Part shown: positions 4,141 through 45,554 of the stretch, one piece after another
Numbering within the stretch: the first letter of the stretch is position 1
Layout of the letters: every line of letters begins with the position of its first letter
Assembly (NCBI GenBank): GCA_013791905.1
Contig: VMSX01000029.1
Location: forward strand, 248,001 to 312,000
Source of the DNA: Rhodocyclaceae bacterium
Lineage (GTDB): Bacteria > Pseudomonadota > Gammaproteobacteria > Burkholderiales > Rhodocyclaceae
Direction: 5' to 3'
Length of the DNA stretch: 64,000 nt
Program-made: the position numbers and the translations under genes
Notes under the pieces: generated by a model
What the model saw: only the letters and a program-made list of their open reading frames with translations
Databases searched by the model: none
What the model was told of the DNA's origin: nothing

Positions 4141-4186
4141 TCTGACAGAAGCGAGGCCGGCAGCCTTGTGCCGGCCCCTGGTCAGA
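4141..4186. other. Nested stem-loop between the DUF1326 and DUF2182 genes
   Basis: Outer arms TCTGAC and GTCAGA enclose an inner 7-bp hairpin GGCCGGC/GCCGGCC. It starts two bases beyond the DUF1326 stop. It could be an intercistronic processing or attenuation structure; there is no T tract on the transcribed strand. Confidence 0.45.
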
Positions 4187-4187
4187 C

Positions 4188-4790
4188 CTATGCACCCTGA
4201 TAGGTGAACGGGGAGTGGAAGCCGTTCTTGTTGCTGAACTGCCAGCTCAGGCCGTGATCCTCGTAACGCACTTCTTTCGATCGTGACGCCACTGCGGCGT
4301 GGCCGGGTGCGATGCACAGGGGGTGGTTGCTGATGGTGACCTCCGCGCCGCCCTGGCCCTCGATGCTCTCGATAGTGGCTGCGCCGATTTTCCCCATATC
4401 AAGGGTGCGTTGTTTGCCTGTGGCGGCAAAGGTCATCGGCACGTTCTTCACGCCAATGACCTCGCCAATATTCGCAGCCAGCAGGGCGGGGTGCCCGCCA
4501 GCTTTGCCGCCGAAGATTTGCGTCAAGGCATCGCGCTGGGCTTCACTGGCCTTCTCATCCAGATAGAGCGCGACCTTCCACTTCACCTCGGCCATGTGGC
4601 CGGGCGAGTGCACCGCAAGGGCTACGTTCAGCCCGTCTACCTTGACGTCGCCAAAGTTTCCCTGGTCGACATGCCAGGCAACGAGAGCGGTACATTCTTC
4701 AGCAGTAGGCGCGCCGAGGAACACACACGGACAAGCCACATCACAATTGCAGGCTTCGAAGTAACTTCCTTTCAGGTTCCATGTTGTCAT
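4188..4790 (-). CDS. DUF1326 domain protein
   Basis: The start at 4790 is chosen because GAGGAG lies 8 bases upstream and because the family begins with a WxLxGxYFEACNCDVACPC motif, seen here as WNLKGSYFEACNCDVACPC. 200 residues; the frame extends a further 32 codons upstream without a ribosome site. The cysteine cluster suggests metal or cofactor binding. It pairs with the downstream DUF2182 membrane protein, about 97 bp away across a stem-loop, and the two probably form one operon. Biochemical function is unknown. Confidence 0.85.
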   Translation of the reverse strand: MTTWNLKGSYFEACNCDVACPCVFLGAPTAEECTALVAWHVDQGNFGDVKVDGLNVALAVHSPGHMAEVKWKVALYLDEKASEAQRDALTQIFGGKAGGHPALLAANIGEVIGVKNVPMTFAATGKQRTLDMGKIGAATIESIEGQGGAEVTISNHPLCIAPGHAAVASRSKEVRYEDHGLSWQFSNKNGFHSPFTYQGA

Positions 4791-5055
4791 AACAAATCTC
4801 CTCTGTGGTCGGTCCTTGAATGCGACCTGTAAATTTAGGGTACGCCGCTGGAGCATCCTGTTCAACGCTGTTGTCATCATGGTCATTCCGAGCAGTTCTG
4901 CAAGTCATCAACTTGTATGCATGCCGCCGCTAAGGCCAGCGTCTGAGTGTCGAATGACAGGCACACTGCAGCCGTATCCCATCAGGATGCTGGCGGGGCA
5001 CGCGACGAATCTGGCACAATCGCCCCCCATACGACGATGCCGACAGGTAGAGACC

Positions 5056-5448
5056 ATGAAATTTGTAATCAGAACTTTCTTCCGCACCCTGCGGGTTGTG
5101 ATCGGCCCGTTCATGCTGCTGTGGGAATTTGTCAGGCGGCCCAAGGGGCTGGTGCGCCCACCGGCGCTACAGCAGCAGGTCGATCAGGCCTGCCGCAGCC
5201 TCGTCCTGTACCAGTTCAGGACGTGTCCGTTCTGCATCAAGGTGCGGCAGGAAATGCGCCGCCTGTCACTCGACATCGAATTCCGTGACGCGCAGGAAGA
5301 CCCACAGAATCGCGCCGCCCTCTTGCAAGGCGGCGGGCAGGTCATGGTGCCCTGCCTGAAGATCACCGACCCGTCCGGTTCCAGCGAATGGCTGTACGAA
5401 TCCGGCAAGGTCATTGCCTATCTGCGCGGGCGTTTTGCGGCGGTCTGA
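5056..5448 (+). CDS. Membrane-anchored glutaredoxin
   Basis: The ATG at 5056 gives 130 residues. An N-terminal hydrophobic stretch (RTLRVVIGPFMLLWEFV) is followed by a glutaredoxin fold starting SLVLYQFRTCPFCIKV. The CPFC motif is a dithiol active site, and VPCLKI supplies the cis-proline region. It would carry out thiol-disulfide exchange near the inner membrane. The longer frame reaching upstream to 4816 runs across the DUF1326 promoter region and is unlikely to be translated. Confidence 0.85.
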   Translation: MKFVIRTFFRTLRVVIGPFMLLWEFVRRPKGLVRPPALQQQVDQACRSLVLYQFRTCPFCIKVRQEMRRLSLDIEFRDAQEDPQNRAALLQGGGQVMVPCLKITDPSGSSEWLYESGKVIAYLRGRFAAV

Positions 5449-10303: not shown

Positions 10304-10600
10304 TTACTTCTTCTTGGCGGCCTTCTTGCCGGCGACGGCGGTCTTGAAGGTGGCGCCAGCGGTAAAGCGCGGCACGGTGGTGGCGGCGATTTTCAGGACA
10401 GCGCCGGTGGCCGGATTGCGGCCGGTGCGCGCGGCACGCTTGGAGGGCTTGAAGGAGCCAAAGCCGACCAGTGTCACGCTATCGCCCTTGGCGACGGCCT
10501 TGACGACGGTGGCGATGGTGGCGGCCAGTGCCTTCTCGGCATCGACCTTGGTGATATCGGCAGACTTGGCGATGGCTTCGATCAGTTCGGATTTATTCAT
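10304..10600 (-). CDS. HU-family DNA-binding protein (first copy)
   Basis: 98 residues beginning MNKSELIEAIAKSADI, with the HU signature GFGSFKPSKRAARTGRNP and a Lys/Ala C-terminal tail (AGKKAAKKK). HU dimers bend and compact DNA. AGGA lies 9 bases upstream of the ATG at 10600, so it can be translated alone. The same frame is open upstream through a complete GIY-YIG domain, so a fused product is also possible. A second HU gene is at 45258. Confidence 0.92.
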   Translation of the reverse strand: MNKSELIEAIAKSADITKVDAEKALAATIATVVKAVAKGDSVTLVGFGSFKPSKRAARTGRNPATGAVLKIAATTVPRFTAGATFKTAVAGKKAAKKK

Positions 10601-10879
10601 GGTGTCATTCCTGTGTGAGTGATGGATAAGTGACTGGACGGCGGAAATCTTCTTTGTCTTCGGTAACCTCTTGATTGCCAATTCGACCCGCAATGCATCT
10701 GAGCGCGAACCGACGGGAGAGGATGCTACCAAGTGCAAGGGCATATGTGAACGGGTGTAGCGCGCGCCTTTGCCGGAAAGATGCTCACGCCAGCGGCGCG
10801 CGACGTCGGTGGTGACTCCGGTATAGAGGGAACCGTCGCTGCATTCGAGGAGGTAGAGGTACCAGAGAACGTGGGACAT
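10304..10879 (-). CDS. GIY-YIG endonuclease domain reading in frame into HU
   Basis: The first 85 or so residues are a UPF0213/YhbQ-type GIY-YIG domain: WYLYLLECSDGSLYTGVTTD holds the paired LYL/LYTG elements, ARRWREH the conserved Arg, and DALRVELAIKRL the Glu. E. coli YhbQ is about 100 residues and ends with its own stop; here no stop codon intervenes (the linker is LIHHSHRNDT) and the frame continues into HU, giving 191 residues. Start ATG at 10879. A perfect 43-bp palindrome lies 14 bases upstream. Either the GIY-YIG protein is always fused to HU, or HU comes mainly from its internal start. Confidence 0.8.
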   Translation of the reverse strand: MSHVLWYLYLLECSDGSLYTGVTTDVARRWREHLSGKGARYTRSHMPLHLVASSPVGSRSDALRVELAIKRLPKTKKISAVQSLIHHSHRNDTMNKSELIEAIAKSADITKVDAEKALAATIATVVKAVAKGDSVTLVGFGSFKPSKRAARTGRNPATGAVLKIAATTVPRFTAGATFKTAVAGKKAAKKK

Positions 10880-10892
10880 GGGCTAGATTTTA

Positions 10893-10935
10893 GGGTGTGT
10901 TCTGAATCATCCGGCGGATGATTCAGAACACACCC
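10893..10935. repeat. Perfect 20-bp inverted repeat with 3-base loop
   Basis: GGGTGTGTTCTGAATCATCC at 10893-10912 and its exact reverse complement at 10916-10935, loop GGC. No T tract follows on either side. It lies just upstream of the GIY-YIG start codon and 40 bp from a 22-nt repeat copy. Confidence 0.9.
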
Positions 10936-45257: not shown

Positions 45258-45554
45258 ATGAATAAGTCTGAACTTATCGAAGCCACTGCAAAGGCAGCTG
45301 ACATTTCAAAAGCAGCAGCTGAGCGCGCGCTTTCCGCCTTGATCGATGCAGTGGTCAATGCGGTCGCCAAGGGCGACGCCGTCACTTTGGTTGGCTTCGG
45401 AAGTTTCAAACCAGTTAAACGTGCTGCTCGTACTGGCAAAAACCCCAAAACCGGCGAAGCGTTGAAAATTGCCGCTACTACCGTACCAAGATTTTCTGCT
45501 GGTGCGGGTTTCAAGGCTGCCGTTTCCGGCAAGAAGGCCGTGAAGAAAAAATAA
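45258..45554 (+). CDS. HU-family DNA-binding protein (second copy)
   Basis: 98 residues, starting MNKSELIEATAKAADISK, with GFGSFKPVKRAARTGKNP and a GKKAVKKK tail; strongly similar to the copy at 10304. GAGGAG precedes the ATG at proper spacing. Here HU stands alone with its own terminator, unlike the first copy, which continues from a GIY-YIG frame. Confidence 0.95.
   Translation: MNKSELIEATAKAADISKAAAERALSALIDAVVNAVAKGDAVTLVGFGSFKPVKRAARTGKNPKTGEALKIAATTVPRFSAGAGFKAAVSGKKAVKKK

Follow-up and report, generated by a model that had tools for sequence, protein, structure and literature searches.

Does the joining of a GIY-YIG nuclease domain to the nucleoid protein HU in one reading frame represent a genuine fusion, and could one such gene make free HU as well as a nuclease tethered to it?

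A GIY-YIG nuclease domain is fused in frame to HU

The question is raised by an ORF at 10304..10879 on the minus strand of the window, the 64,000-nt stretch of Rhodocyclaceae DNA that was analysed. Its 191 codons begin with the ATG at 10877-10879 and stay open until the stop at 10304-10306. They encode a GIY-YIG domain of the YhbQ/Slx1 type, followed by a linker of 12 residues and then by a complete HU. The preliminary description had read this ORF as a GIY-YIG domain fused in frame to HU, and this was confirmed, with both Pfam domains scoring above their curated cut-offs within the one 191-codon frame. It had also proposed looking in relatives for the missing stop; this was done and the same in-frame join was found at 19 further loci. 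Because these loci carry the same fused frame, a sequencing or assembly error as the source of the fusion is ruled out.

The GIY-YIG domain (residues 6-77; 10649..10864, minus strand) is of the Slx1/YhbQ (UPF0213) type. It matched PF01541 with an E-value of 1.1e-14 and a score of 54.9 bits (cut-off 22.6), and the UPF0213 structure 1zg2 with a profile E-value of 9.5e-25. Two solved sequence relatives of the domain were found, both of them UPF0213 proteins. In the alignment of the 20 fused loci, Y9, Y19, R29, H33 and E66 are invariant. Four of these, Y9, Y19, R29 and E66 (20/20), are the putative catalytic residues, matched by order and spacing rather than by structural superposition to the residue types given for At-HIGLE in the available text of PMC9071465. 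With a UPF0213-related GIY-YIG domain and the putative catalytic Tyr, Tyr, Arg and Glu, the GIY half belongs to the Slx1/YhbQ type. The protein departs from the prokaryotic members in one usual, though not strictly required, trait, the lack of auxiliary domains, since HU is attached. One locus, L037, has Glu at the nearly invariant Gly16.

The HU domain (residues 94-191; 10307..10600, minus strand) has its own ATG at 10598-10600 and a basic C-terminal tail. Residues 94-182 matched PF00216 (Bac_DNA_binding) over positions 1-89 of the 90-position profile (E 1.5e-28, 99.3 bits vs a cut-off of 22.4). The DNA-binding arm, RTGxNPxTG, is present, and its G153, N155, P156, T158 and G159 are invariant in the 20 rows. 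The full domain and arm place this part in the HU family (PF00216). The HU part scored below the NCBIfam equivalog cut-offs for both HU-beta (91.3 vs 157 bits) and HU-alpha (89.6 vs 162 bits). The HU-HIG family PF18291 was matched at 40.8 bits (cut-off 26.2) on the region where PF00216 reached 99.3, and the partner here is GIY-YIG. A standalone HU gene is also present in the window at 45258-45554 on the plus strand.

An AlphaFold2 model of the fusion, built on the 20 rows of the alignment, predicted two folded parts joined by a low-confidence linker (mean pLDDT 78.9, pTM 0.42, residues 86-91 and 187-191 below 50). Foldseek searches with this model matched HU structures, 1p71 first, and the UPF0213 protein 1zg2 at rank 33.

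In the samples searched, the fusion occurs mostly in one family

We searched genomes at increasing taxonomic distance. Within the genus, 9 of 19 genomes had fused frames (loci L001-L009, plus L020). The family sample of 297 genomes had them in 15, with at most 11 candidates scored per genome and L031-L040 as the new loci. The genus and family searches supplied the alignment of 20 fused loci from 19 genomes. The window's own genome has two fused copies, the second of which, L020, is on another contig. In the order sample 2 of 399 genomes had the fusion, the window's own genome included, and the other (L212) is from another family of the order; in the class sample it was found in the own genome alone (1/369). 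The order and class searches took sampled genomes and the 8 best candidates of each, with limits of 1e-58 and 1e-55, and may have missed fusions. A scan of named genomes gave 8 fused loci among the 80 listed, 6 of the 80 being unreadable by the ORF pattern; the fused loci came from Rhodocyclaceae and Sulfuritalea MAGs, among others, and L137 and L141 were new. L137, L141 and L212 are thus three fused loci beyond the 20 aligned. The suspicion that the fusion is not common was correct, as the searched samples place it mostly in a single family.

A search of the 297 genomes with the GIY part only returned 22 loci of at least 60% identity. Sixteen run in frame into HU, two run, also in frame, into the tail of a deleted HU, one runs into MeaB, and in three (L098-L100) HU does not follow immediately. 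Among all 22 there was no case in which a stop or a change of frame separated an intact GIY from a following HU.

Spread of the fusion by phages or plasmids was considered and set aside. None of the 404 phage records with any match reached 80% coverage of the query, and 2 of the 1918 plasmid records with a match did so: H2 (36.6% identity), where HU and a hypothetical protein are annotated, and H4 (33.7% identity), where no gene is annotated at the site.

Both domains are conserved and the linker is free of stops

To compare constraint along the ORF, we calculated pN/pS over all pairs of the 20 rows. The ratio was 0.28 for GIY-YIG and 0.27 for HU, from which we conclude that selection is acting on both domains. 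The linker (residues 82-93; 10601..10636, minus strand), which is open and in frame according to the alignment, the stop counts and the model, gave 0.74; as protein it is near neutral and drifts. Despite this drift, its 321 codons contain no in-frame stop, compared with 2 of 301 in one of the alternative frames and 12 of 301 in the second, although the aligned rows are related and these codon counts are therefore not independent. The linker lengths of 36, 48, 51 and 69 nt are all multiples of three. When neutral evolution was simulated along the tree of the 20 rows, about 8.5 rows were expected to carry a stop and none was observed. All 20 rows were stop-free in 13 of 5000 runs (P 0.0026), a low estimate since the simulation leaves out constraint on the ribosome-site bases. 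This stop-free linker is the main evidence, drawn from sequence comparison, for production of the joined protein and for its importance.

HU seems to have a promoter and ribosome site of its own within the nuclease gene

According to the preliminary description, HU keeps its own ATG and ribosome site, and this too was borne out. A Shine-Dalgarno-like AGGAA lies at 10608..10612 (minus strand), 8-12 bases upstream of the HU ATG, and A/G-rich, ribosome-site-like bases are present about 8-18 nt before this ATG in all 20 loci. Arginine codons in the linker are AGG in 18 of 30 cases, whereas AGG makes up 7 of the 151 arginine codons of GIY and 1 of the 78 of HU, and in L005 and L007 the ribosome-site bases are kept where the amino acid changes. 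The mean duplex energy of the site with the 16S tail was -4.9 kcal/mol, compared with -2.3 at random GIY positions. Standalone HU starts (n=28) averaged -7.6 kcal/mol, and 5 of the 20 fused sites reached -6. By these predicted energies, a ribosome-site-like stretch is present at HU but is weaker than usual.

A promoter-like element for HU, which the earlier sequence description had missed, is embedded in the GIY coding sequence at 10723..10751 on the minus strand. It consists of TTCACA (10746-10751), a 17-nt spacer and a TG-extended TAGCAT (10723-10728), and lies 128 nt upstream of the HU start in the window and 128-143 nt before the HU ATG across loci. A promoter scan found this one site (TTCACA-17-TAGCAT with TG) in the region, with 0.2 expected in shuffles. 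The TG-extended TAGCAT was found in 19 of the 20 fused loci, in each of which it ranked first or shared first place among the candidates; L039 has no such element. The -35 part is weak, reading TTCCCA in 16 of 20, TTCACA in two, TTCCCG in one and nothing recognisable in L039. Codon 52 is GCA in 20/20 rows, and codon 51 is GTA in 11 of 11 valine rows and CTA in 8 of 9 leucine rows, so that the TA stays. Normalised synonymous entropy over codons 49-56 was 0.22, the lowest window of the ORF (20 rows), compared with 0.61-0.74 and 0.62-0.74 elsewhere in GIY (windows at codons 5-40 and 57-88). It was 0.33 at the ribosome site and 0.29-0.65 in the HU windows, two of which were as low as 0.29 and 0.33.

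The three fused loci outside the alignment, L137, L141 and L212, have TAGGAT in place of TAGCAT. TAGNAT at this place was absent from the 36 compared GIY genes without HU, a partial set that takes every third locus of L142-L210 and for which the five nearest genes, L098-L102, are the closest comparison. The sequence at this site is TAGCAT (L104) and TAGTAT (L097) in the HU-deleted loci and TAGAAT in the MeaB-fused L103. Seven loci have an intact HU and a broken or lost GIY; TAGCAT is kept in L021, L022, L041, L046 and L064 and not in L023 and L043. L023 and L043 are counted as remnants from likeness of linker, HU and neighbourhood alone, the single frameshift of L041, from a 59% complete genome, may be a sequencing error, and L065 was left out of the count as its contig ends inside the gene. 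Among standalone HU genes, 4 of 28 had TAGCAT anywhere in the 250 nt upstream, and on this count the element is not the general HU promoter of these genomes. From these patterns of conservation, HU seems to have retained a promoter of its own inside the nuclease coding sequence.

The start of the nuclease part is poorly marked

The position of the GIY start differs between loci. With starts chosen by a simple rule, the mean duplex energy at its ribosome site was -2.3, no better than at random GIY positions (-2.3), and L037 has no ATG, GTG or TTG between the preceding stop and the GIY domain. Since the start is variable and poorly marked and one locus is without a usual start codon, the fusion protein may be scarce. 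A leaderless start was considered from the TAAAAT just upstream of the window's ATG and rejected, as no motif common to the 20 starts was seen by eye.

A perfect 43-bp inverted repeat lies just upstream of the fusion start (10893..10935), between a GGDEF gene and the fusion gene, and is without a T run. By exact match its core was found at one place in the own genome, and inspection by eye of some 100 nt upstream of each of the other 19 loci showed no such palindrome. It was set aside on these grounds and is probably not part of the system.

The two halves can be lost separately and may not share a strict joint descent

Both GIY and HU have been lost separately in several loci. L097 and L104 have a deletion of the HU core, yet their GIY frame continues into the lysine tail of HU; the frame of L104 begins with a PF12843 (QSregVF_b) domain. 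In L103 (G197:C43; fusion ORF 4149-5396, minus strand) a GIY domain of the same clade is in frame with a MeaB GTPase (Pfam E 4.1e-84). Trees of the two halves, made by a quick method from fewer than 100 columns each, were compatible with one clade of GIY halves, fused and HU-deleted (AU p 0.82), and rejected one clade of HU halves, fused and remnant (AU p 0.012). We therefore do not claim that the halves descend strictly together from a single fusion. As the HU halves are not one clade and the GIY halves may be, HU was probably swapped or joined again.

The neighbourhoods of fused loci largely differ. A long syntenic block is shared with the second fused copy in L105, L116, L117 and L118, whose genomes belong to four genus codes. 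Of the four copies, three (L020, L033 and L034) have nearly identical DNA, a sign of probable recent transfer. The gene that immediately follows GIY(-HU) encodes an HNH endonuclease (PF01844) in L097 (308-787), L114 (5643-6020) and L119 (4270-4692), and the sequence after the solo GIY of L098 resembles these HNH downstream stretches.

A probable dual-product gene for free HU and a tethered nuclease

We consider it probable that this is a dual-product gene, giving free HU and a scarcer HU-tethered nuclease. That one gene could make both had been proposed in the preliminary description, and the proposal gains support from the stop-free linker, its lengths in threes, the ribosome-site-like stretch and the promoter-like element. 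In this model, upstream transcripts translated from the GIY start would give a 191-residue Slx1/YhbQ-like nuclease with HU at its C-terminal side, and the sigma-70-like extended -10 promoter inside GIY, together with the internal ribosome site in the linker, would give an ordinary 98-residue HU. Free HU would be in excess, coming from this gene and other HU genes, and most of the fusion would therefore be paired with plain HU in mixed dimers. HU has a preference for nicks, forks and four-way junctions, and it bends DNA; it may thereby bring a weak nuclease to branched or broken DNA; the HU part would fill the role that SLX4 has for eukaryotic SLX1. The two products, the mixed dimers, the nuclease activity and its targeting are all inferred. 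More tentatively, and with rather less confidence than an even chance would allow, we propose that an Slx1-like nuclease carries HU on the same chain as a bend- and junction-finding scaffold that replaces SLX4, in an overprinted gene whose nuclease coding sequence doubles as the HU promoter and ribosome-site region, so that one locus would set the ratio of tethered to free HU.

The join could instead be neutral read-through, in which a GIY stop was lost just upstream of HU, and HU is harmless baggage with its own promoter behind an unchanged GIY. In its favour, a member of this GIY clade is joined in frame to MeaB (L103), HU can be deleted (L097, L104) and GIY broken or lost (L021, L022, L041, L046, L064), and the available part of PMC1564403 cautions that certain single GIY-YIG fusions may be without functional meaning. 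An idle join nevertheless predicts that linker stops should be common, and none was seen where the simulation, with ribosome-site constraint outside the model, expected them in about 8.5 of 20 rows; the frame is also kept in both HU-deleted loci. We regard this reading as unlikely. The embedded promoter-like element, the ribosome-site-like stretch, the poor GIY start signals and the retention of element and HU in five of the seven loci with a broken or lost GIY would also fit a gene in which HU alone is made to any extent and the GIY segment is kept mainly as the seat of its promoter. However, a promoter has no need of the other ~60 codons, and the low GIY pN/pS (0.28) holds across the domain, with Y9, Y19, R29 and E66 unchanged in 20/20 rows, which makes such a gene quite improbable.

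It is still harder to credit that the GIY-YIG domain is a selfish module, a mobile element that settles in frame upstream of useful genes such as HU and MeaB and is hence hard to lose. The largely different neighbourhoods of the fused loci and the existence of the MeaB fusion speak for mobility, but the nearest solved structures are of the YhbQ/Slx1 and not the homing type, the available text of PMC1564403 describes inheritance of the Slx1 family as mostly vertical, and GIY has been lost with HU kept in several loci.

Comparison with known systems

The dual-product reading can be set beside what is described for HU and for Slx1-type nucleases, as far as the available portions of the papers go. 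HU binds junctions, forks, nicks and overhangs (PMC5683647). Fungal Slx1 finds branch points via a DNA bend and, without Slx4, is an inhibited homodimer with an occluded active site (PMC6902002); SLX1 is described as inactive alone (PMC8287910). The plant relative At-HIGLE needs no Slx4 to work, and its own C-terminal region tunes it (PMC9071465). YhbQ is grouped with Slx1 (PMC7017083), and prokaryotic Slx1-like proteins, typically without auxiliary domains, are represented by 191 tabulated bacterial sequences in PMC1564403.

The fusion shares its GIY-YIG domain and catalytic pattern with the UPF0213/YhbQ proteins BH0048 (1zg2) and EF2693 (1ywl) and differs from them in carrying HU and an embedded HU promoter-like element. 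With HU proteins (PF00216; 1p71, 4p3v) it shares a complete domain with the RTGxNPxTG arm; here, however, HU has an N-terminal nuclease extension and a promoter-like element inside another coding sequence. Like SLX1-SLX4 and At-HIGLE, as these are described in the sources at hand, it would be an Slx1-lineage nuclease controlled by a partner or an added C-terminal region, except that the added part is a nucleoid protein on the same chain and neither SLX4 nor a RING domain is present. Prokaryotic Slx1-like domains with added modules are on record as fusions to methyltransferases, HsdR and a SPOUT enzyme; none of those in the available text of PMC1564403 concerns HU, and the word histone is absent from its main text. 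Among 64 GIY ORFs read from L142-L210 (69 loci), 15 have tails of at least 80 aa, and all 15 are from Burkholderia. Their nuclease is of the same type and is extended by a basic part, perhaps one that binds DNA, but these tails (135-216 aa, net charge +19 to +40) are low-complexity, basic and Ala-rich, unlike HU.

No report of a GIY-YIG/HU fusion was found among the matches listed in literature searched, by titles and abstract openings, for such fusions or for YhbQ/Slx1 relatives; a Deinococcus methylation paper that names both proteins mentions them separately in its available text. The domain families are already known, and the new part is the fusion architecture and the overprinted HU promoter-like element. 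Here the coding sequence of one protein retains a promoter-like element and a ribosome site for another, and the loci that have lost one half serve as natural deletions. Slx1-like proteins occur in many bacteria, yet YhbQ is seldom named in the literature searched, as far as its available text goes. A natural fusion to HU suggests that the substrate of Slx1-like proteins is bent or branched nucleoid DNA.
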